Shown one piece after another: positions 97 to 26,766 of a stretch of DNA of 30,063 bases; the stretch's first letter is position 1, and each line of letters begins with the position of its first letter. Source of the stretch: a virus. The translations under genes were made by a program, and so were the position numbers. The DNA lies in the IMG/VR virus record IMGVR_UViG_3300044998_001229, positions 1-30,063 of that record. The stretch is one strand, 5' to 3'. Below the pieces are notes generated by a model. The model made no database searches, was not told the DNA's origin, and saw only the letters and a list, made by a program, of their open reading frames with translations.

Positions 97-119
97 AGCG
101 CCAGACTTCCTCATTTTCC

Positions 120-158
120 AACCCGCCGGGCGGCAGCGCTCGGCGGGTTTTGCTTTTG
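120..158 (+). terminator. Terminator-like hairpin before the ParB-methyltransferase gene
   Basis: AACCCGCCG (120-128) pairs with CGGCGGGTT (141-149) across a 12-base loop and is followed by TTTGCTTTT. It probably ends transcription from a gene left of the window. The arms resemble the hairpins at 11294 and 26791. Confidence 0.6.
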
Positions 159-168
159 GACTTGCCCT

Positions 169-1582
169 TTGAACACGCTCAACGTCGAGTACCGCAAGGT
201 CGAGGCGCTGATCCCCTACGCCCGCAATCCGCGCACGCACGCCGAGAGCCAGATCGCCAAGATCGCGGCCAGCATCGTCGAGTTCGGCTGGACCAACCCG
301 ATCCTTGTCGATGGCGCGAACGGCATCATCGCCGGCCACGGCCGCCTGGCCGCTGCGCGCAAGCTGGGACTGGATCAGGTGCCGGTGATCGAACTGGCCC
401 ATCTGACGCCGGCGCAGAAGCGCGCCTATGTCATCTCCGACAACCGACTGGCGCTTGATGCCGGCTGGGACGAGGAGATGCTGGCGCTGGAACTGGCGGA
501 ACTGTCCGAAGCCGGGTACGACATGGCTCTGACCGGGTTTGAGGATGCCGAGATCGAGGCGCTGCTCACGGGTGAGGTGACTGCCGCCGACGATGACGCA
601 GCGCCTGACGCTGAGGAGTCGGACGCCACCGACGACGTGCCGGATGCGCCCGCGGAGCCGGTGTCCCGCGCCGGCGATGTCTGGGCCATCGGCGCGCACC
701 GCCTGATCTGTGGCGATGCCGCCGACGCGCAGGTGGTCGCCACGCTGATGGGGAGCGAGCGCGCGGCGCTGTGCTTCACCTCGCCGCCCTACGGTAACCA
801 GCGCGACTACACCACGGGCGGCATCGCCGACTGGGACGGCCTGATGCGCGGCGTATTCGCGCACCTGCCGATGGCGGACGACGGTCAGGTGCTGGTCAAC
901 CTCGGGCTGATCCACAGAAACAACGAGGTCATCCCGTACTGGGACGGTTGGCTCGCTTGGATGCGCCAGCAGGGGTGGCGGCGTTTCGCCTGGTACCTGG
1001 GACCAGGGGCCGGGCATGCCCGGCGACTGGGCGGGGCGTTTTGCGCCGAGCTTCGAGTTCGTCTTTCACTTCAACCGGCAAAGCCGCAAGCCCAACAAGA
1101 TCGTGCCCTGCAAGCACGCCGGTCAGGAGTCCCACCTGCGCGCCGATGGATCGAGCACGGCGATGCGGGGCAAGGATGGCGAGGTGGGCGGCTGGACGCA
1201 TGCCGGTCAACCGACGCAGGACAGCCGCATCCCCGACTCGGTGATCCGCGTGATGCGCCACAAGGGCAGGATCGGCCAGGGGATCGACCACCCGGCCGTG
1301 TTCCCGGTCGCGCTGCCCCGGTTCGTGATCGAGGCCTACACCGACGTCGGCGATATCGTGTTCGAGCCCTTCGGCGGCAGCGGCAGCACGATGCTGGCGG
1401 CCGAGCGCACGGGCCGCCGCTGCCGCAGCGTGGAAATCGCACCGGAATACGTGGACGTCGCCATCCGACGTTTCCAGCAGAACCACCCTGGCGTGCCGGT
1501 GACCTTGATGGCCACCGGCCAGTCCTTCGAACAGGTGGCGGCGGATCGCGCCACGACCCAGCCAGCCGAGGGGGTGGCATGA
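169..1582 (+). pseudogene. ParB-domain / beta-class DNA methyltransferase, frameshifted
   Basis: A fusion of an N-terminal ParB/Srx-type domain (IPYARNPRTH, then GHGRLAAARKLG) with a C-terminal N4/N6 adenine or cytosine methyltransferase. Motif IV is TSPPYG near residue 205, and the AdoMet-binding motif FEPFGGSGST comes near the end; this order marks the beta class. The proposed start is TTG at 169 with GGA about 8 bases upstream, because nothing upstream looks coding. Frame 1 runs to about 996 (ending in FAWY); the sensible continuation (WDQGPGMPGDW) begins at 998 in frame 2 and ends at 1582. Relatives usually read WYVWDQGPG here, so two bases seem to be missing. It may be a real inactivating mutation or a sequence error. 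It overlaps the next gene by ATGA. Confidence 0.75.
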
Positions 1583-2844: not shown

Positions 2845-3176
2845 ATCACGAACCCGGTGAGGTAAGGCAAGCCGCGCGGAATGCCGTACTGCTTGCTGGT
2901 CTGGCGGCCGATCGTCCAGCCCATCCACTGCTCGGTGGCGGCGTGGATCGCGTCCGTCAGGGGCTGGCCCCGGTAGAGGCCGCTCTGCACATCGTCCGCG
3001 AAGTGGCGGCCGTGGCGGCTGTCGAGGAAGACCCGCACGGCCTCGACGGGCTGTCCGGTGGCCTCAGCGATGGCGTTCATCGCCAGCGGCCAGGCGGTGG
3101 GCGCATGGCCTTCCATCGTGCCCCAGAAGCCCCAGACTTCGTTGCGGGTGGCGGGGATCACGTGTGTGGTGGTCAT
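2808..3176 (-). CDS. Hypothetical accessory phage protein (122 aa)
   Basis: A 122-residue soluble protein without a motif I can name. It reads as a folded domain (NEVWGFWGTMEG, then QWMGWTIGRQTSKQYG) with an acidic end (EIIEEEVAA). The start is supported by AAGGAG about 8 bases upstream and by the conserved promoter-like element 36 bases upstream. It is the last of four minus-strand genes, each with its own element, opposite to the structural genes. Its 3' end runs 37 bases into the methyltransferase gene. It may belong to the small proteins often found near DUF3489 genes in proteobacterial mobile elements; this is inference and its function is unknown. Confidence 0.7.
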   Translation of the reverse strand: MTTTHVIPATRNEVWGFWGTMEGHAPTAWPLAMNAIAEATGQPVEAVRVFLDSRHGRHFADDVQSGLYRGQPLTDAIHAATEQWMGWTIGRQTSKQYGIPRGLPYLTGFVIHCEIIEEEVAA

Positions 3177-3212
3177 GGTCGACTCCTTGGCGTCGATCGT
3201 TGCGGTACCCGT

Positions 3213-3244
3213 ATGAACGCGCTGTTCAACAGGTAAGCCAAGCG
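3213..3244 (-). promoter_or_regulatory. Conserved promoter-like element, copy 1
   Basis: Read on the minus strand: CGCTTGGCT, a variable stretch, then GAACAGCGCGTTCAT. TTGGCT (3241-3236) and GTTCAT (3218-3213) are exactly 17 bases apart, as in a sigma70 promoter, and the gene start at 3176 lies 36 bases beyond. GAAC-N5-GTTC forms a hyphenated dyad over the -10 edge. Confidence 0.65.
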
Positions 3245-3249
3245 GAACC

Positions 3250-3462
3250 TCAATTCACTTGCTTCGCCTGTGGGCGCCCGGTGACGGCGGCGAGCTTGGC
3301 GCGGGCCGATGCGCTTTCCCATCGGCAGGGTCCGTTGCCGCGAGCGGCCTCTTCGGTCCAGCGAGCCAGGATTTCGTCGTCGCTCCAGCCCTTGGCGCAG
3401 AGGTAGGCGTAGTCGTCGGCGTCATAGTTGCTGTGGGTGAGGATGGCGCGGGTGGGTTTCAT
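3250..3462 (-). CDS. Small hypothetical protein (70 aa)
   Basis: A 70-residue protein beginning MKPTRAILTHSNYDADDYAYL, with a Trp-rich centre (KGWSDDEILARW) and a basic C-terminus. ATG at 3462 is chosen because AAGGAG lies 7 bases upstream and the conserved promoter-like element sits at the fixed 36-base distance; longer in-frame readings would overlap that element. KGWSDDEILARW looks like a short helix-turn-helix or adaptor segment, but I recognise no family. It is the second of four individually promoted minus-strand genes. Confidence 0.7.
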   Translation of the reverse strand: MKPTRAILTHSNYDADDYAYLCAKGWSDDEILARWTEEAARGNGPCRWESASARAKLAAVTGRPQAKQVN

Positions 3463-3498
3463 GCTGTGCTCCTTGGCGTCGATCGTTGCGGCACCCGT

Positions 3499-3530
3499 AT
3501 GAACGCGCTGTTCGATGGGCAAGCCAAGCG
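3499..3530 (-). promoter_or_regulatory. Conserved promoter-like element, copy 2
   Basis: Minus strand TTGGCT (3527-3522), 17-base spacer, GTTCAT (3504-3499), with GAACAGCGC conserved inside the spacer. An A-tract (GCAAAAAGCG) lies just upstream of the -35-like hexamer. The leader down to the ribosome site is nearly identical to copy 1. Confidence 0.65.
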
Positions 3531-3581
3531 CTTTTTGCATCGTGTGGCAGGGGGCGACGGAGTTCGCGGCCCCACCGTCGC

Positions 3582-4145
3582 TCACGCGAGACGGTAGACG
3601 CGCTCGCCACCCGGCACCTTCTCGGAGACGATGGTCAGACCGAGCTTCTTCTTGAAGGTCCCGGCGAAGGTGCCGCGCACCGTGTGCGCCTGCCAGCCGG
3701 TGGCGGCACAGATCTGGCGGATGGTGGCGCCCTCGGGGCGCTGCAACATCCGGATCACCTCGGCCTGCTTGCTGCTTGCCCGGGTGCGCGGCTTGGCCCA
3801 GGTGGCCTCGGCCGCCGCAACCGCAGCCTCCAGTTCGGGATCGCCCGTCTCGGCTTGTGCCCCTTCAGCGTTGGCGATGATCCGGTCGAGATGGGCTTCG
3901 AACCGACCGATGCGCGTCTGGCCGACGCCGGGGCGCGCAAGCCCCAAGGCGTCGTAGCCCTCGGCGGCGACGCGCCAGCCCTCGCCATCGGGCGTGATCA
4001 GGGCGCGCTTGAACATCCCGTCGAGCACTTTCTGGCGGGCGCCGCCTTTGATGTGGTCGGGGAACCAGTCGATCTTGCCGTCCGTGTGGTGGACGGCGTG
4101 GGCGAGGATGGCGTGCTGGGCCGGGGTCAGTGGCGTGGTGCTCAT
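3582..4145 (-). CDS. DUF3489 domain protein
   Basis: A 187-residue protein. The C-terminal 65 residues (KQAEVIRMLQRPEGATIRQICAATGWQ onward, to GGERVYRLA) match my memory of DUF3489, a winged-helix-like domain of unknown function common in proteobacterial prophages and mobile elements. The N-terminal half (LTPAQHAILAHAVHHTDGKIDWFPDHIKGGARQKVLDGMFKRALI) also looks like a small helical DNA-binding or antirepressor-type domain. ATG at 4145 is preferred over the ATG 15 bases upstream because GAAGGAG lies 7 bases before it. A conserved promoter-like element sits 36 bases upstream. It is probably a DNA-binding regulator; this is inferred from the domain shape only. Confidence 0.8.
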   Translation of the reverse strand: MSTTPLTPAQHAILAHAVHHTDGKIDWFPDHIKGGARQKVLDGMFKRALITPDGEGWRVAAEGYDALGLARPGVGQTRIGRFEAHLDRIIANAEGAQAETGDPELEAAVAAAEATWAKPRTRASSKQAEVIRMLQRPEGATIRQICAATGWQAHTVRGTFAGTFKKKLGLTIVSEKVPGGERVYRLA

Positions 4146-4181
4146 GGGCTGCTCCTTCACAGGGGTTGATCGGGTGACGTG

Positions 4182-4213
4182 ATGAACGCGCTGTTCGGCG
4201 GTGCAGCCAAGCG
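4182..4213 (-). promoter_or_regulatory. Conserved promoter-like element, copy 3
   Basis: Minus strand TTGGCT (4210-4205), 17 bases, GTTCAT (4187-4182), with the GAACAGCGC core. An AAAACG tract precedes the -35-like hexamer. The start of the DUF3489 gene is 36 bases downstream. Confidence 0.65.
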
Positions 4214-4241
4214 TTTTGTGCTTGGCGTTCAGGGCATGCCA

Positions 4242-4439: not shown

Positions 4440-4473
4440 GGCGTTTCCCTTCGGGGGTGGTTGGCGTGACGTG

Positions 4474-4505
4474 ATGAACGCGCTGTTCCCCCCAGAAGCC
4501 AAGCG
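4474..4505 (-). promoter_or_regulatory. Conserved promoter-like element, copy 4
   Basis: Minus strand TTGGCT (4502-4497), 17 bases, GTTCAT (4479-4474), with the GAACAGCGC core and a strong upstream A-tract (GCAAAAAACG). It lies in the divergent gap between the 65-aa gene and the small terminase gene. Confidence 0.65.
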
Positions 4506-4530
4506 TTTTTTGCAAGCCATTTGAGATTCC

Positions 4531-5079
4531 ATGGGCCTTTCGATCCGCGCCTACGCGCGCCACCGGGGCGTGTCGCACGTGGCCGTGAAAAAGGCCATCG
4601 ACACCGGGCGCATCACGATGCTTCCCGACGGCACCCTCGACCCCGAGCAGGCCGACGCGCAGTGGGCGAAGAACACCGTCTCTGCACGCAGCACCGGCAC
4701 CGCGAAGGCCGCGCCCCGCCCCCGTGCATCGGAGGAGGGCGCCGCGAGCCTGCCCCCGTCCCTGGGTACCGGGCTGGGCACGGGCGGGGCCACCTTGCTG
4801 CAGGCGCGCACCGTCAACGAGGTGCTCAAGGCCAAGATCCGGCAGGTGGAGCTGGCCGAGAAGAAGGACGAACTCGTCGACCGGGCGCGGGCGATCGCGC
4901 ATGTCTTCAAGCTCGCGCGCGCCGAACGCGATGCCTGGCTGAACTGGCCGGGCCGCGCGGCGCCCCTGCTGGCCGCTCGCTTCGACCTGGACGAGCACGC
5001 GCTGCACGTGGCGCTCGACGCCGCCGTGCGCGAGCACCTGGCCGAACTCGGCGAGCTCGCCCCGAGGATCGACGCATGA
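4531..5079 (+). CDS. Terminase small subunit (Nu1-like)
   Basis: A 182-residue protein that should recognise the packaging site and recruit the large subunit. The N-terminus (GLSIRAYARHRGVSHVAVKKAI) is a helix-turn-helix as in lambda Nu1 and terminases annotated as elements of external origin. A flexible Ala/Pro-rich linker follows (residues about 50-85). The C-terminus is helical and contains NEVLKAKIRQVELAEKKDEL, typical of the oligomerisation part. It overlaps the large subunit by ATGA, so the two are coupled. The ribosome site upstream of 4531 is weak (TTGAGATTCC). Confidence 0.85.
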   Translation: MGLSIRAYARHRGVSHVAVKKAIDTGRITMLPDGTLDPEQADAQWAKNTVSARSTGTAKAAPRPRASEEGAASLPPSLGTGLGTGGATLLQARTVNEVLKAKIRQVELAEKKDELVDRARAIAHVFKLARAERDAWLNWPGRAAPLLAARFDLDEHALHVALDAAVREHLAELGELAPRIDA

Positions 5080-7040
5080 GCCACGACTACGAGGGTGCGG
5101 CCGAGATCGAGCGGGCCTGGCGCGAGGGGCTCACGCCCGATCCGCTGCTGAGCGTCTCCGCCTGGGCCGACCGCTATCGGCGGCTCGGTACCCGCGAGTC
5201 GGCCGAGCCCGGGCGTTGGCGCACCGCGCGCACGCCGTACCTGCGCGAGATCATGGACTGCCTGTCGCCCACCTCGCCGATCGAGCGCGTGGTGTTCATG
5301 AAGGGCGCGCAGGTGGGCGGCACGGAGCTGGGCCTGAACTGGGTCGGCTATGCGATCCACCACGCGCCGGGGCCGATGATGATCGTCTGGCCCACCACCG
5401 AGATGGCGCAGCGCAACTCCAAGCACCGCATCGACCCCTTGATCGAGGAGTCGCCGGTGCTGCGCGAGATCATCGCCCCGGCGCGCTCGCGCGACTCGGG
5501 CAACACCGTGCTGATGAAGGAGTTTCGCGGCGGGGTGCTGGTGATGACCGGGGCCAATTCGGCCGTGGGCCTGCGCTCGATGCCGGTGCGCTACCTGTTC
5601 CTGGACGAGGTGGACGCCTACCCGCTGGACGTGGATGGCGAGGGCGATGCGATCCATCTGGCCGAAGCCCGCACCCGCACCTTTGCGCGCAGGAAGATTC
5701 TGCTGGTCTCGACGCCGACGATCGCCGGCGCTTCGATCATCGAGCGCGAGTACGAAGCCTCCGACCAGCGTCGCTACTTCGTGCCCTGCCCGCACTGCGC
5801 GCACCGCCAGTGGCTGCGCTTCGAGCGGCTGCGCTGGGCGCCGGGGCGGCCGCAGGACGCGGCCTATGTGTGCGAGGCCTGCGAGGAGCCGATCGCCGAG
5901 CACCACAAGCCGCGCATGCTCGAGCTTGGCCAGTGGCAGGCGCAGGCCGAGAGCCGCACCGCGGGTTTCCATTTGTCCTCGCTCTACAGCCCCTGGCGGC
6001 GCTGGCGCGAGATCGCCGCCGCCTGGGAGAAGGCCACCCGCTCGCCCGGCCGCTCGGTGGCGATGATCAAGACCTTCAAGAACCACGAGCTGGGCGAGAC
6101 CTGGGTCGAGGAGGGCGAGGCGCCGGACTGGCAGCGTCTGCTGGAGCGGCGTGAGGACTACGCGATCGGCACCGTCCCCTCGGGCGGCCTCCTGCTCACC
6201 GCCGGCGCCGACGTGCAAAAGGACCGCATCGAGGTCTCGATCTGGGCCTTCGGGCGCGGCAAGGAATGCTGGCTGGTCGAGCACCGGGTGCTGATGGGCG
6301 ACACCGCCCGCGAGGCGGTCTGGCAGCGGCTGGCACAGTTGCTAGCCGAGACCTGGACGCACGAGCGCGGCGCGCCGCTGTCCCTCAGCCGCCTGGCGCT
6401 GGATACGGGCTTTGCGACGCAGGAGGCCTACGCCTTCGTGCGGCAGGTGCGTGACAGCCGGGTGATGGCGGTCAAGGGCGTGCGAAGTGGTGGGATGGGC
6501 GGCGCCGCCTTGATCGGCACGCCGACCGCGGTCGACGTCTCCCAGGCGGGCAAGAAGCTGCGCCGGGGCATCAAGGTCTACAGCGTGGCGGTCGGCATTG
6601 CCAAGCTGGAGCTCTACAACAACCTGCGCAAGAGCGCGGACGTCGCCGAGGACGGCGTGACCGCGACGTATCCGGCCGGCTTCGTCCACCTGCCGAAGAT
6701 CGACGCCGAGTTCATCCAGCAGCTGTGTGCCGAGCAGTTCGTCACCCGCCGCGACCGCAACGGCTTCCCGGTGCGCGAGTGGCAAAAGATGCGCGAGCGC
6801 AATGAAGCGCTGGACTGCTACGTCTACGCCCGCGCGGCCGCGTCAAGCGCGGGCCTGGATCGCTTCGAGGAGCGCCACTGGCGCGAGCTGGAGCGACAAC
6901 TGGGGGTAGCGCCCCCACCGGATGAGCCGCCGCTCATCCACGACATCGCATTGAACGAGGCCACCCATCGCGGTGGCCTTGGTGTTTCTGCAACCCGTAA
7001 CCCCGGCCGGCGTGTGATCAAAAGCCGCTGGCTGGCCTGA
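5076..7040 (+). CDS. Terminase large subunit (GpA family)
   Basis: A 654-residue packaging motor with ATPase and nuclease domains. The ATPase domain shows a Walker A-type segment MKGAQVGGTE (about residues 75-84), Walker B LFLDEVD (174-180) and a coupling motif VSTPT (211-215). A zinc-finger-like pair CPHC (238-241) and CEAC (266-269) follows, as in lambda gpA relatives. The nuclease part begins around AGADVQKDRIEVSIW (377-390), whose Asp is the usual first metal ligand. Length and domain order match the GpA family. The ATG at 5076 overlaps the small-subunit stop. A lambda-type terminase implies cos-end packaging. Confidence 0.95.
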   Translation: MSHDYEGAAEIERAWREGLTPDPLLSVSAWADRYRRLGTRESAEPGRWRTARTPYLREIMDCLSPTSPIERVVFMKGAQVGGTELGLNWVGYAIHHAPGPMMIVWPTTEMAQRNSKHRIDPLIEESPVLREIIAPARSRDSGNTVLMKEFRGGVLVMTGANSAVGLRSMPVRYLFLDEVDAYPLDVDGEGDAIHLAEARTRTFARRKILLVSTPTIAGASIIEREYEASDQRRYFVPCPHCAHRQWLRFERLRWAPGRPQDAAYVCEACEEPIAEHHKPRMLELGQWQAQAESRTAGFHLSSLYSPWRRWREIAAAWEKATRSPGRSVAMIKTFKNHELGETWVEEGEAPDWQRLLERREDYAIGTVPSGGLLLTAGADVQKDRIEVSIWAFGRGKECWLVEHRVLMGDTAREAVWQRLAQLLAETWTHERGAPLSLSRLALDTGFATQEAYAFVRQVRDSRVMAVKGVRSGGMGGAALIGTPTAVDVSQAGKKLRRGIKVYSVAVGIAKLELYNNLRKSADVAEDGVTATYPAGFVHLPKIDAEFIQQLCAEQFVTRRDRNGFPVREWQKMRERNEALDCYVYARAAASSAGLDRFEERHWRELERQLGVAPPPDEPPLIHDIALNEATHRGGLGVSATRNPGRRVIKSRWLA

Positions 7041-7057: not shown

Positions 7058-7549
7058 ATGAGTCTGGCCACCCGCATCGAGAGCCTGGTCCTCCGCGTCG
7101 CGCAGGAGTTCAACGATGTGCGCGCGAAGGCCGGGAATCTCGCCAACCTCACCACCACCGACAAGTCGAGCCTGGTCGCGGCGATCAACGAGCTGAAGGC
7201 GGCGGTGCAGTCCGCCACGGCCATCGACGACACCCAGGTCGCCACCACCAGCACCTACTCGTCGAGCAAGATCGTCACCCTGCTCGACACCCTCAAGGCC
7301 GAGATCCTGGGCGGCGCCGATGCGGCCTTCGACACGCTGCTGGAGATCCAGCAGCTGCTGCAAGACGGCGCGAGCGGCCTGGATGCCCTGCTCGCCGCGG
7401 TCAACCACCGCGTGCGCTTCGATGCGGCGCAGTCGCTGACGGTGGCGGAACAACTCCAGGCTCGCAGCAATATCGGCGCGGTCGCCGCCGCCGATGTCGG
7501 CGACACCGACACCGACTTCGTCGCGATCTTCGAAGGATCGCTCGCCTGA
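7058..7549 (+). CDS. Fibre-like structural protein (163 aa)
   Basis: A 163-residue protein with AAGGAG about 10 bases before its ATG. It contains NLTTTDKSSLVAAINELK and LTVAEQLQARSNIGA, motifs common in phage fibre proteins. Its place between terminase and portal suggests a head (capsid) fibre rather than a tail fibre. Its N-terminus, MSLATRIESLVLRVAQEF, resembles that of the next gene, so the two may share an anchor. Its stop overlaps the next start by one base (TGATG). Confidence 0.7.
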   Translation: MSLATRIESLVLRVAQEFNDVRAKAGNLANLTTTDKSSLVAAINELKAAVQSATAIDDTQVATTSTYSSSKIVTLLDTLKAEILGGADAAFDTLLEIQQLLQDGASGLDALLAAVNHRVRFDAAQSLTVAEQLQARSNIGAVAAADVGDTDTDFVAIFEGSLA

Positions 7550-7941
7550 TGAGCCTGGCCTCGCGCATCGCCGCCTTGGCCGGCCGAATCGGTCTGGAGG
7601 TCAAGGCCAAGATCGGCGCCGATCATCCGGGCCTGGCCCGGGCGTGGGTGTGCTTCGGGTACGTGGGCAACCAGATCGTCGTGCGCGCCGCGTACAACGT
7701 GGCCAGCGTCACCCGGCTTACGGCTGGGCGTTACCGCGTGAGCTTCGCCACGCCGATGCCGGATGCCCACTACTGCTGGACGGCGCTCGCCCGCAGCAAC
7801 ACCAACAGCGGGACGCAGCGCGTGGCGATCGTGCGCGCGACCGCTGACGAGAAGACGCCGACGCACGTCGATGTGGGCTGCGCGACCACCACGGCGTCCT
7901 TAGCCGACTCCCCCGAGATCAACCTCGTGGTCTACCGCTGA
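7549..7941 (+). CDS. Fibre-tip-like structural protein (130 aa)
   Basis: A 130-residue protein. After an N-terminus similar to its neighbour (MSLASRIAALAGRIGLE), it carries a beta-rich domain, VRAAYNVASVTRLTAGRYR then FATPMPDAHYCWTAL, of a type found at the C-termini of many phage fibre proteins (compare the N-V-S-S-I...Y-T-V-N-F-A-T-A-M-P-D pattern). It may be a receptor- or glycan-binding tip displayed on the capsid together with the 163-aa protein. It overlaps both neighbours by one base, so translation is tightly coupled. Confidence 0.65.
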   Translation: MSLASRIAALAGRIGLEVKAKIGADHPGLARAWVCFGYVGNQIVVRAAYNVASVTRLTAGRYRVSFATPMPDAHYCWTALARSNTNSGTQRVAIVRATADEKTPTHVDVGCATTTASLADSPEINLVVYR

Positions 7942-8162
7942 TGGCCTACACCCCAGCCGACCTCGATGCGCTGCAAGCCGCGCTCGCCAAGGGCGAACGG
8001 CGCGTGAGCTTCGGCGACAAGACGGTCGAGTACCGCTCGGTCGAGGAACTGCAAGCGGCCATCCGCGCGGTCAAGCGCGACCTGCACGAGCAGGCGGTGG
8101 CCACGGGCCTGTGGCCCGGTGCGCCGCGGCAGATCCGCATCACCACGTCGAAGGGCACGTGA
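7941..8162 (+). CDS. Head-tail joining protein (gpW-like)
   Basis: A 73-residue protein. Its pattern (PADLDALQAALAKGERRVSFGDKTVEYRSVEELQ, shown only as landmarks) is that of gpW-like joining proteins: helix, beta-hairpin around VSFGDKTVEYRS, second helix. It sits just upstream of the portal gene, as W does in lambda. It would plug the portal before tail attachment. Start and stop overlap the neighbours by one base each. Confidence 0.85.
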   Translation: MAYTPADLDALQAALAKGERRVSFGDKTVEYRSVEELQAAIRAVKRDLHEQAVATGLWPGAPRQIRITTSKGT

Positions 8163-9640
8163 TGGCTTGGTGGCACACCCTCAAGCGCCGGCTCTTCGGC
8201 GCCAGCCCGACCTACGACGGCGTGGGCGGCGGCCGCCGGGCCGTGGCCTGGCAGGTCGGCAACCCCGGTGCGGTGGCGGCGCTCGCCTTCACCCAAGGCG
8301 AACTGCGCGCCAAGAGCCGGGATCTCGTGCGCCGTAACGCTTGGGCGGCCGCTGGCGTCGAGGCCTTCGTGGCCAATGCCATCGGCACCGGCATCAAGCC
8401 GCAGTCGATGGTGGCGGACCACGCGCTGCGCGAGGCCATCCACGCCCTTTGGTGGGACTGGGTGGAGGAAGCCGATGCGGCCGGCCTCACCGACTTCTAC
8501 GGCCTGCAGGCCTTGGCCTGTCGCGCCATGCTCGAAGGCGGGGAATGCTTGATACGTTTGCGCTGGCGCCGTCCGGAGGATGGGCTGGCGGTCGGCCTGC
8601 AACTGCAGGTGCTCGAGCCGGAGCACCTGCCGCTCACCCTGAACCGCGAGCTGCCGGGCGGCCACGTGATCCGCGCCGGTATCGAGTTCGACCGGCTCGG
8701 GCGGCGCGTCGCCTACCACCTGACCCGCTCGCATCCGGGCGATGGCAGCCTCGCCCCGATGTCGGGTGCGGGCGGCCTGGAGACCGTGCGCGTGCCGGCC
8801 GACGAGGTGATCCACCTGTTCCGGCCGCTGCGCCCGGGGCAAATCCGCGGCGAGCCGTGGCTGGCGCGTGCGCTGGTCAAACTCCACGAGCTCGATCAGT
8901 ACGACGACGCGGAGCTGGTGCGCAAGAAGACCGCGGCGATGTTCGCGGGCTTCATCACGCGGATGAGTCCCGAGGACCACCTGATGGGCGAAGGGCTGCC
9001 GGATGCCAGTGGTGCCGCGTTGGCCGGGCTGGAGCCCGGCACGCTGCAGATCCTGGAGCCCGGCGAGGACATCAAGTTCAGCCAGCCGGCCGATGTGGGC
9101 TCGAGCTACGACGCCTTCATGCGCCAGCAATTCCGGGCGGTGGCCGCCGCGATGGGCATCACCTACGAGATGCTCACCGGCGATCTCACCCAGGTGAACT
9201 ATTCCAGCATCCGCGCGGGGCTCTTGGAGTTCCGCCGCCGCTGCGAGGCCATCCAGCACGGGGTGATCGTGCATCAGTTGTGCCGGCCGGTCTGGCGGGC
9301 GTGGATGGCGCAGGCGGTGCTGGAAGGCGCGCTCGCCTTGCCGGGATTCGCGCGGCAAAGGCGCCAGTACCTCGCCGCCAAGTGGATCCCACAGGGCTGG
9401 CAGTGGGTCGATCCCTTGAAGGAGTTCAATGCCTTGAAGCTCGCGATCCGCGCAGGACTCATGAGCCGCTCGGAAGCGATCTCGGCCTACGGCTACGACG
9501 CCGAGGACATCGACCGCGAGATCGCCGCCGACAACCAACGCGCCGATGCGCTCGGCCTGGTCTTCGACTCCGATCCGCGGCACGACCAAGCCTCGAGGCC
9601 GACGCCGACCCCCGCGACCGACACCGAACTTCAGGACTGA
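8162..9640 (+). CDS. Portal protein (lambda gpB family)
   Basis: A 492-residue protein forming the dodecameric portal at the packaging vertex. Landmarks typical of lambda-family portals include ARDL-like KSRDLVRRNAWAAAGVE, ANAIGTGIKP, DFYGLQALACRAMLEGGE, and the central VIHLFRPLRPGQIRGEPWLA followed by KKTAAMFAGFI. MGITYEMLTGDLTQVNYSSIRAGLLEFRR is another hallmark. Length fits the family. The C-terminal tail after about residue 470 is Pro/Thr-rich and probably flexible. The start overlaps the gpW-like stop by one base. Confidence 0.95.
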   Translation: MAWWHTLKRRLFGASPTYDGVGGGRRAVAWQVGNPGAVAALAFTQGELRAKSRDLVRRNAWAAAGVEAFVANAIGTGIKPQSMVADHALREAIHALWWDWVEEADAAGLTDFYGLQALACRAMLEGGECLIRLRWRRPEDGLAVGLQLQVLEPEHLPLTLNRELPGGHVIRAGIEFDRLGRRVAYHLTRSHPGDGSLAPMSGAGGLETVRVPADEVIHLFRPLRPGQIRGEPWLARALVKLHELDQYDDAELVRKKTAAMFAGFITRMSPEDHLMGEGLPDASGAALAGLEPGTLQILEPGEDIKFSQPADVGSSYDAFMRQQFRAVAAAMGITYEMLTGDLTQVNYSSIRAGLLEFRRRCEAIQHGVIVHQLCRPVWRAWMAQAVLEGALALPGFARQRRQYLAAKWIPQGWQWVDPLKEFNALKLAIRAGLMSRSEAISAYGYDAEDIDREIAADNQRADALGLVFDSDPRHDQASRPTPTPATDTELQD

Positions 9641-16975: not shown

Positions 16976-19675
16976 ATGGCCAGCAACCGTGCCCAAATCC
17001 TGATCAGCGCCGTCGACCAGACCAAGACCGCCTTCGATTCGATCAAGCGGGGCTTGGGTGGACTGACTGATGCCGCCCGCAGCGTCAATGGCGTGCTGGC
17101 CGGCCTGGGCGTGGCGCTGTCGGCGGCCGGGCTCGGGGCGATGGTCAAGTCCGCACTCGACTCGGCCGACGCGCTCAACAAGCTCTCGCAGCGCGTGGGC
17201 ATCACGGTGGAATCGCTCTCCACCCTGGTGCCGGCAGCGGAACTGTCGGGCGTCTCCGCGCAGACCTTCGAGACGGGCCTCAAGAAGCTCGCCACCACGA
17301 TGTTCGAGGCGGCCACGGGCTCGCAGGAGTCCGCCCGGCGCTTTGCGGCTTTGGGCGTGGAGTTCCAGAACCAGGACGGCACGCTGCGCGCGACCGATGC
17401 GGTGCTGCTCGATCTGGCCGAGCGCTTTGCGGCCATGCCCGACGGCGCGCAGAAGTCGGCGCTGGCGGTGCAGCTCTTCGGCAAGAGCGGCGCCGAGCTC
17501 ATCCCCTTTCTGAACCAGGGGCGCGAGGGCATCGCGGCGCTCACCGGCGAGATGGCCGAGCTGGGCGTGCAGATCGGCGGCGAGACCGCCGCGCAGGCGG
17601 AAGTCTTCAACGATGCTCTGGCCAAGCTCCGGCTGGCCACGACGAGCCTGGCCAACCGGGTGATCGAGGCCTTCCTGCCGGCCATGAACGAAATGGCCGG
17701 CGGCATGGTCGAGTCGGCCAAGCAGGGCGGCACGCTGCGCGCAGTTCTGGACGGCGTGATGCTGGTGCTCAAGACCCTGGCGCTGGGGGCCGCCACGGTC
17801 GGCAAGGCCTTCGTCGCCCTGGGGGAGGCCATCGGGGGCGGCATGGCCGCCGCCGTCGAGGCCCTCTCCGGCAACGTCGTGGGCGCCAAGGCCATCATGT
17901 CCGACCTCAAGGGCAGCCTCCTGCGGCGGCTGGACGAGTTGGCCGAGTTCCGCGACAGCCTGTTCGACCCCAAGTCCATCGAGGTCCAGGCCCCGCGCAT
18001 TCAGGCCGACCCGTCGCTCTTGCAGCGCTTCGCCGATCCCGGCAAGACCCGGGACGCGGCGAGCGCCCGGGCCGCGTTGCTCAAGGCGCAGATGGAGGCC
18101 GAGTTCGCCTTGCTCAAGGACGGCCTGGCGCGCCAGAAGCAGGCACTCGACACGGCCCTGCAAGACCGGCTGGTGTCGATTCGCGATTACTACACGCAGA
18201 AGACGCAGCTGGAGCAGCGCGAGATCGACACCGAGATCGAGCGCCGCCAGCAGGAACTCGCCGCCCAACGCGCCCTCATCGCCGATCCGCGCGCCTCCGA
18301 GTCCGAGCGGCTGCGTGCCAAGGGCGATGTCGCCAAGGCCGAGGCCGATCTCATCACACTCAACAACCGCCGCGCCGATGTCGAGCAGGCCAACGCTCGC
18401 GCCGCCGCCCGGGCCGAGCGGGAACTGGCCGATGCCTTGGCCCAGGCGCGCGAGGAACTGGCCCAGCTCACCGGCACCGACACGGCCGAGCAGCGGCGTG
18501 CGGCCATCGAGCGCGGCTACCAGGATCTGCGTGCGCGGCTGGCGGCCGAGAACGACGCCGCGGGCGTCTCGCTGATCGACCGGCTCATCGACGTCAAGGC
18601 AGCGCAGGCCAACCTGGCCGCACTCGAAACCGCGTGGCGGCAGGTCACCGAACGGCTGCGCAACGCGCAGGAGGCCATCGGCATCCAGCAGCAGGCCGGG
18701 CTGCTCACCGAAGCCCAGGCACGCGAACGCATCATCGCCTTGCAGCGCGAGTCCGCGGCCGAGATGCAGCGCCTGTTGCCTGCGATGCAGCAGGCCGCGC
18801 GGGCGATCGGGCCCGATGCGGTGCTGCGCGTGCAGGCCTTCAACAATGAGCTGGAGCGCACGCGGCTCGTCACCGATCAGCTGGCGCCGTTGTGGAACGG
18901 CATCGGCGAGAGCTTCGGCACGGCCTTGCAGGCCATGGTCACCGGCGCGCAGAGTTGGCGCGCGGCAATGGCCGGGCTGTTCCGGCAGGTGGCCAATGCC
19001 TTCTTGCAGCAGATCGTGATCCAGCCCTTCCAGCAGTGGGTGGCCATGCAGGCGCGCATGCTGGCAATGAAGCTGGGCTTCGTGCAGCAAGAGCAGGCGA
19101 TCGAGCAAGCGGCGGCCGCCCAGTCGGTCGCGCGGAAGTCCGCCGAGACGACGGCCAAGGTCTCGATGGATGCCGCCCAGGCCGGCGCGGGCGCGGCGGC
19201 GTCGCAGGCCTCCATCCCCATCGCCGGCCCCGCATTGGCGGTCGCCGCGATGGCCGCGATGGTGGCCGCGGTCATGGCGCTGCTGGGCGGCATCAAGAAG
19301 TTCGCCGCCGGCGGCTACGTCACCGGCCCGGGCACCAGCACCTCGGATTCGATCCCGGCTCGGCTGTCGGCGGGCGAGTACGTGGTGCGCGCGGCGGCCG
19401 TGCAGCGCGTGGGCGTGGCCTTCCTGGATGCGATCAACGGCCTGCGCACGCCGCCGGCCTGGGACGGGCAGCGCCTGGCCTTCGCCGCCGGCGGCCTGGT
19501 GCCCACCGTGCAGGTGGCGCCGGCCGCACCGCAGGTGAACAACGCCGTGCGCATCGTCAACGCCATCGACCCGGGCGTTACGCACGACCACCTGCAGACC
19601 CCCGCCGGCGAGCGGGTGATCCTCAACATCATCGGGCGCAACGCGCGCGCGGTGCGCTCAGCGCTGCAAGGATGA
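16976..19675 (+). CDS. Tail tape measure protein
   Basis: An 899-residue protein that sets tail length and is threaded through the tube. The N-terminus (AQILISAVDQTKTAFDSIKRGLGGL) is typical, followed by a long helical body with coiled-coil stretches (about residues 350-600, rich in Glu, Gln, Arg and Ala). Hydrophobic segments near 55 (VLAGLGVALSAAGLGAMV) and 745-770 (AGPALAVAAMAAMVAAVMALLGG) may be the channel-forming parts. The C-terminus has FAAGGYVTGPGTSTSDSIPARLSAGEYVVRA, a common tape-measure ending. The ribosome site is weak, and the start region is shared with the promoter of the toxin-antitoxin operon. Confidence 0.92.
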   Translation: MASNRAQILISAVDQTKTAFDSIKRGLGGLTDAARSVNGVLAGLGVALSAAGLGAMVKSALDSADALNKLSQRVGITVESLSTLVPAAELSGVSAQTFETGLKKLATTMFEAATGSQESARRFAALGVEFQNQDGTLRATDAVLLDLAERFAAMPDGAQKSALAVQLFGKSGAELIPFLNQGREGIAALTGEMAELGVQIGGETAAQAEVFNDALAKLRLATTSLANRVIEAFLPAMNEMAGGMVESAKQGGTLRAVLDGVMLVLKTLALGAATVGKAFVALGEAIGGGMAAAVEALSGNVVGAKAIMSDLKGSLLRRLDELAEFRDSLFDPKSIEVQAPRIQADPSLLQRFADPGKTRDAASARAALLKAQMEAEFALLKDGLARQKQALDTALQDRLVSIRDYYTQKTQLEQREIDTEIERRQQELAAQRALIADPRASESERLRAKGDVAKAEADLITLNNRRADVEQANARAAARAERELADALAQAREELAQLTGTDTAEQRRAAIERGYQDLRARLAAENDAAGVSLIDRLIDVKAAQANLAALETAWRQVTERLRNAQEAIGIQQQAGLLTEAQARERIIALQRESAAEMQRLLPAMQQAARAIGPDAVLRVQAFNNELERTRLVTDQLAPLWNGIGESFGTALQAMVTGAQSWRAAMAGLFRQVANAFLQQIVIQPFQQWVAMQARMLAMKLGFVQQEQAIEQAAAAQSVARKSAETTAKVSMDAAQAGAGAAASQASIPIAGPALAVAAMAAMVAAVMALLGGIKKFAAGGYVTGPGTSTSDSIPARLSAGEYVVRAAAVQRVGVAFLDAINGLRTPPAWDGQRLAFAAGGLVPTVQVAPAAPQVNNAVRIVNAIDPGVTHDHLQTPAGERVILNIIGRNARAVRSALQG

Positions 19676-23334: not shown

Positions 23335-23540
23335 ACGAGGACGTGACCGTCACCATCGCCCACGTGCGCGCCGCGGGCCTGTGCGTGCCCGGCGCGCGCA
23401 CCTGGTTCGCGCGCCAGGGTCTGGACTTCCGCGCCTTTCTCGCCCAGGGGCTGCCGGCGTCGGTCCTGCTGGCCACGGGCGATGCGATGGCCGCGCGCGT
23501 CGTCGAGGTGGCCCGCCGCGCCCATGAGGAGCCGCGCTGA
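23331..23540 (+). CDS. Small tail-region protein (69 aa)
   Basis: A 69-residue protein from a GTG start at 23331 that overlaps the previous stop. The pattern VRAAGLCVPGARTWFARQGLDFRAFLAQGLPAS, then LLATGDAMAARVVEVA, recurs in small genes of many siphoviruses just before the tail tip gene. No function is known. Its last base overlaps the ATG of the next gene. Confidence 0.7.
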   Translation: MNEDVTVTIAHVRAAGLCVPGARTWFARQGLDFRAFLAQGLPASVLLATGDAMAARVVEVARRAHEEPR

Positions 23541-26415: not shown

Positions 26416-26766
26416 ATGCCATCGACCGATCCGAACCTGGGCCTCATCTACGGCTGGACGCTGGGCGAGTCCGGCTGGCACACCGAGATGGACGCCAACC
26501 TCAAACGCCTGGGCGCCGTCGTGGGCCTGTCGGTGACGAGCCGCACCGTGGTCACCCCACCAGCCAGCCCCGCCGAGGGCGATCGCTACATCGTGCCGAG
26601 CGGCGCCACCGGCGCCTGGGCCGGCAGGACGGACCAGATCGCGGTGCGGATCAATGGGGCCTGGGAGTACCACGCCCCGAGGGTCGGCTGGATGTGCTAC
26701 GTCGAGGACGAGGACAAGCTCGCCGTCTACAAGACCGGTGGCTGGAGCGCGGGCATCCCCGTCTGA
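26416..26766 (+). CDS. DUF2793-like tail protein
   Basis: A 116-residue protein with GAGGAGA upstream. It contains NLGLIYGWTLGESGW, ASPAEGDRYIVPSGATGAWAG and WMCYVEDEDKLAVYKTGGWSAG, in the pattern I recall for DUF2793, a domain often found in tail fibre or tail-associated proteins of alpha- and betaproteobacterial phages. It probably forms part of a fibre or receptor-binding complex together with the tip protein. Confidence 0.82.
   Translation: MPSTDPNLGLIYGWTLGESGWHTEMDANLKRLGAVVGLSVTSRTVVTPPASPAEGDRYIVPSGATGAWAGRTDQIAVRINGAWEYHAPRVGWMCYVEDEDKLAVYKTGGWSAGIPV

Follow-up and report, generated by a model that had tools for sequence, protein, structure and literature searches.

Two neighbouring phage genes between terminase and portal probably encode the shaft and the tip of one fibre

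Between the terminase and the portal of a virus lie two short genes that resemble fibre genes and begin alike. The tail genes of the same virus lie at the opposite end. What do the two genes make, how do their products relate to each other, and where on the virion would these be found? The DNA analysed here is the whole virus record of 30,063 bases, called the window below. An earlier note, made from its letters alone, had proposed paired capsid-surface fibres or a split receptor-binding protein. The two proteins are called P1 and P2; their shared N-terminus is called the head, and the peptide that ends P1 is called the tag. The features concerned are these.

5076 to 7040, plus strand: terminase large subunit (context), C-terminus without a tag
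7058 to 7549, plus strand: P1, 163 amino acids, proposed fibre shaft; PHROG 4757, all-helical low-confidence model
7058 to 7123, plus strand: P1 N-terminal head, residues 1-22; conservation, pairwise and profile match, modelled helix from residue 3
7124 to 7513, plus strand: P1 shaft, residues 23-152; LTTTDK and QARSNIGA motifs, partial profile match to solved phage fibres
7514 to 7546, plus strand: P1 C-terminal tag DFVAIFEGSLA, residues 153-163; 26.5 bits
7549 to 7941, plus strand: P2, 130 amino acids, proposed fibre tip; PHROG 11355, tail fiber
7549 to 7611, plus strand: P2 N-terminal head, residues 1-21; conservation, profile match, modelled helix 3-19
7636 to 7938, plus strand: P2 beta tip, residues 30-130; model pLDDT 87, fold matches at Z 5-8
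7941 to 8162, plus strand: gpW-like head-tail joining protein (context); NF047331, E 1e-21
8162 to 9640, plus strand: lambda-type portal (context); TIGR01539, E 2e-140

The open reading frames and the flanking genes confirm the placement given in the earlier note. P1 and P2 come immediately after the terminase large subunit and ahead of the gpW-like joining protein and the portal, and a one-base overlap joins the stop of each of P1, P2 and gpW to the start that follows. Genes for a gpD-like decoration protein, the major head protein, the major tail protein and the tape measure lie on the 3' side, followed further along by a J-like tail protein, a tail-fibre-type domain and an endolysin. The tail genes are thus at the far end, as had been claimed (tape measure at 16976, J-like tail protein at 23540, tail-fibre-type domain at 26416). 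The last of these (26416-26766), a protein of 116 amino acids, has matches to tail-fibre PHROGs in their N-terminal part alone; with it, the tail end has a second fibre start, a conventional one. Upstream of the terminase small subunit, the window also carries two overlapping families of direct repeats, one of 104 nt (3141-3244, 3427-3530, 4110-4213) and one of 60 nt (3479-3538, 4162-4221, 4454-4513), each in three copies that are 64-82% alike.

By tblastn, P1 and P2 are both present in 147 of 149 viral loci, which are close relatives and in which some contigs are counted twice, and in 73 of the 74 genome loci examined. The hosts include Silanimonas, Thermomonas, Vulcaniibacterium, Caldimonas, Stenotrophomonas and other Beta- and Gammaproteobacteria; such loci also occur in some metagenome bins of other phyla. 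In Thermomonas sp. S9 (L237:9001-9885, plus strand), P1 and P2 read as a single open reading frame of 294 amino acids; whether naturally fused or joined by an indel of the assembly, it carries no weight in what follows. Two phages that have related terminases and lack the pair were opened, RcBaka and AcaML1. Because these go directly from terminase to gpW (or to a small protein instead) and then to portal, the pair looks like an inserted two-gene unit.

The matching N-termini reported in the earlier note are borne out. The sequences MSLATRIESLVLRVAQEFNDVR (P1) and MSLASRIAALAGRIGLEVKAKI (P2) are identical at 9 of 22 positions. With the Met left out, they reach a BLOSUM62 score of 25 over 21 residues; the next best among 1213 possible starts in the window scores 12, and only 6 in 100,000 shuffles reach 25. 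Plain BLASTP with the two proteins alone finds nothing significant (E 5.5), and a profile-profile comparison of the two families finds a match limited to residues 1-21 (probability 86%, E 5e-6). Among 41 P1 sequences, M1, S2, L3, R13 and E17 are nearly invariant; among 44 P2 sequences, M1 and R13 are invariant, and S2, L3, L10, G15 and E17 nearly so. The likeness is real, it is confined to about 21 residues, and it holds in the homologues examined, where the earlier note had allowed that it might fail.

A shared N-terminus suggests, by itself, that P1 and P2 are two parallel fibres, each attached to the same capsid or neck site by means of the same helix and projecting independently. Whether this is the right way to read the likeness turns on what follows the head in each protein.

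In P1, which matches PHROG 4757 (a family whose function is unknown) over residues 1-160 with E 2e-63, the head is followed by a shaft. The QARSNIGA-type motif noted earlier is indeed present in the translated sequence, and part of the shaft profile matches the solved phage fibres 9d93 gp4 (E 3e-10) and 6v8i gp68 (E 2e-5). The model of P1 is all-helical, its helices joined by turns, at low confidence (pLDDT 66); Foldseek and VIA-align return only generic helical bundles for it and no structural identity, and neither P1 nor P2, used alone, has a convincing match among solved structures. P1 then closes with the tag, in which D153, F154, V155, F158 and L162 are invariant in 41 sequences. The consensus DFVxxFxxxL is found at the C-terminus of P1 and is lacking in P2. 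In the window, the tag stands directly before P2, a head-bearing gene.

P2 matches PHROG 11355 (tail fiber protein) over its full length, residues 1-130, with E 8e-58. Its model has an N-terminal helix (residues 3-19) and is all-beta from there on (pLDDT 87), so that the beta tip domain which the earlier note had placed in its C-terminal part is matched by the prediction. Among solved folds, VIA places phage tailspike and fibre tips and H-type lectins nearest, at Z 5-8, modest values that give a hint of fold and not of homology; Foldseek alone has the phiAB6 tailspike as its best match, with E 0.015. The modelled fold supports a tip of the sugar-binding type, no receptor being named. Across 71 loci, the mean identity to the window is 74% for P2, 79% for the terminase, 82% for gpW, 82% for the portal and 85% for P1. 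P2 is the most variable of these five neighbouring proteins, with identity below that of P1 in 71 of 71 loci, which fits the expectation for a fibre tip.

Here, more distant phages are informative. A search for P1 homologues matched 144 records at E 0.1, and 14 annotated phages were opened. The gene that precedes the P1 homologue ends in a DLVLLFENAL-type peptide. The homologue itself has a head at its start and a DFVAxFEAAL-type peptide at its end, and the gene after it has a head followed by a differing domain, for example a glycoside hydrolase in Yuma. The order is therefore anchor (tag), P1 (head and tag), tip (head); it was seen by eye in 13 of the 14 phages read, Ochrobactrum phage POA1180 being the one that did not show it. 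A profile of the tag, trained on some of its own matches, discriminates sharply: it gives at least 14 bits to 312 of 21,270 open reading frames, and those listed, a set without the frames that have the usual window-type tag, are all P1 homologues or the gene just before one.

The tag was also sought by itself, as a DNA pattern and without P1 homology, in the 2.9 million viral contigs of IMG/VR. These scans gave 3 + 62 = 65 viral loci, of which 57 were assessable after 7 had been dropped (open reading frame below 20 amino acids) and 1 was found to lie at a contig edge. A head opens the next gene in all 57 (51 by regular expression, 6 by eye); most of these loci are near relatives of the window pair, and about 18 have unrelated tips. 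The 57 loci hold 70 tagged open reading frames with 64 complete next frames. When the head profile is built from P1 N-termini alone, 62 of the 64 reach at least 4 bits and 61 at least 8, the two misses (L347 and L367) being head-like by eye. After untagged frames, 77 of 2950 next frames reach at least 4 bits with the same profile; most of the 77 presumably follow frames that end just before P1 or P2.

A scan with the anchor-type tag gave 17 loci, of which 5 were dropped (open reading frame of 16 amino acids or fewer) and 3 were already known; L382 is the same virus as L386. The next gene has a head in 12 of 12, and a tip head then follows in 11 of 11, some of them weak (scores 5-6). In two loci (L390:7990-8430, minus strand; L391:3306-3743, plus strand), the tip gene starts like P1, with a head and the LTTTDK shaft motif, which looks like a duplication of the shaft.

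Two parallel fibres would leave much of this without explanation: the conserved tag of P1, the head-bearing gene after every one of the assessable tagged genes, and the tags on anchor proteins that are unrelated to one another. That arrangement is therefore unlikely. In relatives, the gene after the P1 tag bears a head, so that the N-terminus looks less like a common capsid anchor than like a plug that fits into the segment before it. We consider it probable that P1 and P2 are two serial segments of one phage fibre, a shaft and a tip. P1 would be the mostly helical shaft, and its tag DFVAIFEGSLA would bind the N-terminal helix of P2, whose predicted lectin-like beta tip probably touches the host surface. 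The head of P1 would itself plug into a tagged partner, which in most distant relatives would be the tagged anchor encoded just upstream. Of the two proposals in the earlier note, the split receptor-binding protein fits best; pairing on a shared anchor fits less well, the P1 tag preceding head-bearing genes. Matching N-termini, tag and gene order can be read directly in the sequences of many phages. The fold of the tip is modelled, and we infer that tag and head bind physically, that the fibre is trimeric, that it has the place on the virion discussed below, and that its tip has a receptor role.

If tag and head dock, their sequences might be expected to change together. A Mantel test for each joint, on 26 non-redundant chains with all four ends, gave r 0.65 for anchor tag and P1 head and r 0.24 for P1 tag and tip head, the cognate pairs, and r 0.10 for the non-cognate anchor tag and tip head. 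The head and the tag of P1 gave 0.20, the two heads 0.19 (p 0.047), and the two tags 0.27, which falls to -0.02 without two Pseudomonas phages that have a variant tag. Pooled over 45 hand-made pairs, co-variation is weak (r 0.17, p 0.05). The co-variation of cognate ends fits docking, and it is supporting evidence only, because neighbouring gene ends are, of course, also physically linked.

Such linkage alone can yield co-variation, and some non-cognate ends correlate too. Both facts would suit a view in which tag and head are trimerisation or folding parts, each serving its own protein, which are inherited as a gene block and do not bind each other. This view we hold to be quite improbable. 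The anchor tag tracks the P1 head and not the tip head, and tags also close proteins that have no relation to P1, among them a tail terminator; the relatives listed for that terminator have none.

The anchors deserve a closer description. They are mutually unrelated. Some are small valine-rich proteins with a collagen-like stretch; Yuma has an Mtd_N domain (PF18454, E 1e-14), L340 a tail-fibre N-domain, and L338 a tail terminator (PF13554, E 6e-7; PHROG 179, E 1e-15) with the tag on a C-terminal extension. The collagen-like anchors suggest trimers. In L338, the terminator (111-506, plus strand) is followed by the P1-like and tip genes and then by what reads as a major tail protein gene. In the 15 listed among the 92 known relatives of this terminator, similarity extends to residue 80, 94 or 120 and does not reach the tag; a search of viral contigs for relatives of the tagged terminator found only itself. 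As far as sequence can tell, the tag and head pair recurs in unrelated phages of Proteobacteria and Actinobacteria, on unrelated anchors.

The window is different here. No tagged anchor was found upstream of P1, where the terminase ends without a tag, and no other tag was found in the window, the next best C-terminus (7.5 bits) being unrelated. The anchor tag is also missing in close relatives of the window, whereas most distant members have one. In leave-one-out assignment, which placed 25 of 31 and 25 of 32 shaft and tip heads correctly, the P1 head of the window scores as the tip class, the class that pairs with P1-type tags (log-odds -20). The lack of a separate anchor tag, and heads of P1 and P2 that score as one class, are what two parallel fibres would also predict. 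For serial segments, either P1 of the window attaches to a capsid or neck protein through some other surface, or its segments interlock and P2 caps them. Because the P1 head is of the tip class and the sole P1-type tag found in the window is that of P1, P1 could plug into itself, giving a head-to-tail filament of variable length on head or neck with P2 as its cap; this is a tentative suggestion, and rather doubtful.

Where, then, would the fibre sit, to judge by gene position? The order terminase, cassette, portal is found in the window family and in L332 (960-7259, plus strand), where anchor, P1 and tip come between terminase and portal, in the slot that the pair has in the window; the terminase and portal of L332 match PHROGs other than those of the window. 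In Touem01 and L341, the portal gene is close to the cassette. Yuma, CcrSC, Finch and L382/L386 have it after capsid genes, L338 has it after the tail terminator, and in L351 the major tail protein is nearby. Other cassettes lie near lysis or metabolic genes, away from head genes, and few genes could be placed when 12 records were searched for terminase. Because the cassette is often among head, packaging and neck genes, and because the tag in L338 is on a tail terminator, the fibre is likely to be on the head or neck of the virion; the fusion in L338 points to the neck. The P1 homologue in phage N3 is annotated as capsid-related. Extra density at the vertices of N3 is described in PMC5646251, which does not link it to the P1 homologue.

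One might argue instead that P1 and P2, despite where they are encoded, join the tail tip. Tail fiber is the annotation of most family matches, and 9d93, the solved relative of the shaft motif, is named tail collar fibers. Yet cassettes recur beside terminase, portal, capsid and tail-terminator genes, none of those annotated lies beside baseplate or J-type genes, and at its tail end the window carries a fibre-type gene of its own. Attachment at the tail tip is accordingly improbable.

Two known head structures were considered and set aside. P1 is not proposed as the head filament of phiCbK, since phiCbK shows neither tag nor head in the stretches read (29.5-70 kb). Among Caulobacter relatives, the cassette of CcrSC (gp124-127) lies next to capsid genes and, when L152:8506-10656 (plus strand) is compared with L306:4887-6830 (plus strand), seems to replace phiCbK gp73. 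Likewise rejected was a connection with Agrobacterium phage 7-7-1, which has capsid fibres whose proteins are unknown according to PMC12796354. The best tag in that phage (10.7) is on a minus-strand frame and looks unrelated, as does the one start that scores above 8 bits as a head (9.4), which lies within another gene. Its putative fibre gp102 (L378:1602-3365, plus strand) lies between the terminase small and large subunits, near other structural genes, and neither a tag nor a head could be recognised there with conviction.

Serial and branched phage fibres are, of course, already known. In phi29 (PMC7602432), gp8.5 is a trimeric helix-turn-helix head spike that aids attachment to the cell. 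P1 relatives in several Gordonia phages are annotated head fiber protein. However, gp8.5 is a single protein with a gpD-like base, while P1 lacks the base and has a separate tip next to it. No gpD-like beta-tulip base was found in P1 (163 amino acids, low-confidence all-helical model, no profile match), nor has P1 detectable similarity to the gp8.5 profile (hhalign probability 0.6%). The helices of that monomer model are joined by short turns, which by themselves tell neither for nor against a trimeric helix-turn-helix spike.

The head spike of RcGTA (PMC7296036) has Rcc01079 as its base and Rcc01080 as its fibre, the latter docking to the base by a short N-terminal peptide. This too is a head fibre of two proteins with a short N-terminal docking peptide. 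As described there, however, the peptide is an Ile/Leu-Gly repeat that meets a pentameric jellyroll, whereas the docking proposed for P1 and P2 is that of a helix with a C-terminal tag; an N-terminal Leu-Gly repeat of that type was not found in P1 or P2. Branched receptor-binding proteins of Klebsiella phages have a conserved N-terminal peptide that plugs into another receptor-binding protein (PMC6872550). A short N-terminal sequence with a variable outer domain is seen in P1 and P2 as well. The Klebsiella socket is a T4gp10-like domain in the first protein, in contrast to the C-terminal tag and linear chain proposed here; Pfam, PHROGs and NCBIfam report no T4gp10-like domain in P1.

The long tail fibre of T4 (gp34-gp35-gp36-gp37) sits at the tail baseplate, and its parts are not known to have a shared N-terminal helix or common C-terminal tag. 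Like the fibre proposed for P1 and P2, it is serial, made from separately encoded segments (PMC5537660). In the open-access literature, no account was found of a portable pair of C-terminal tag and N-terminal helix across unrelated phages.

The serial rule of tag and head turns "two fibres, one anchor" into "shaft and tip of one fibre". If it is true, neighbouring genes would become readable as the parts of a fibre, in order, and many "hypothetical" genes of the head module would become anchor, shaft or tip. Which genes make head or neck fibres would then be testable by simple binding assays.
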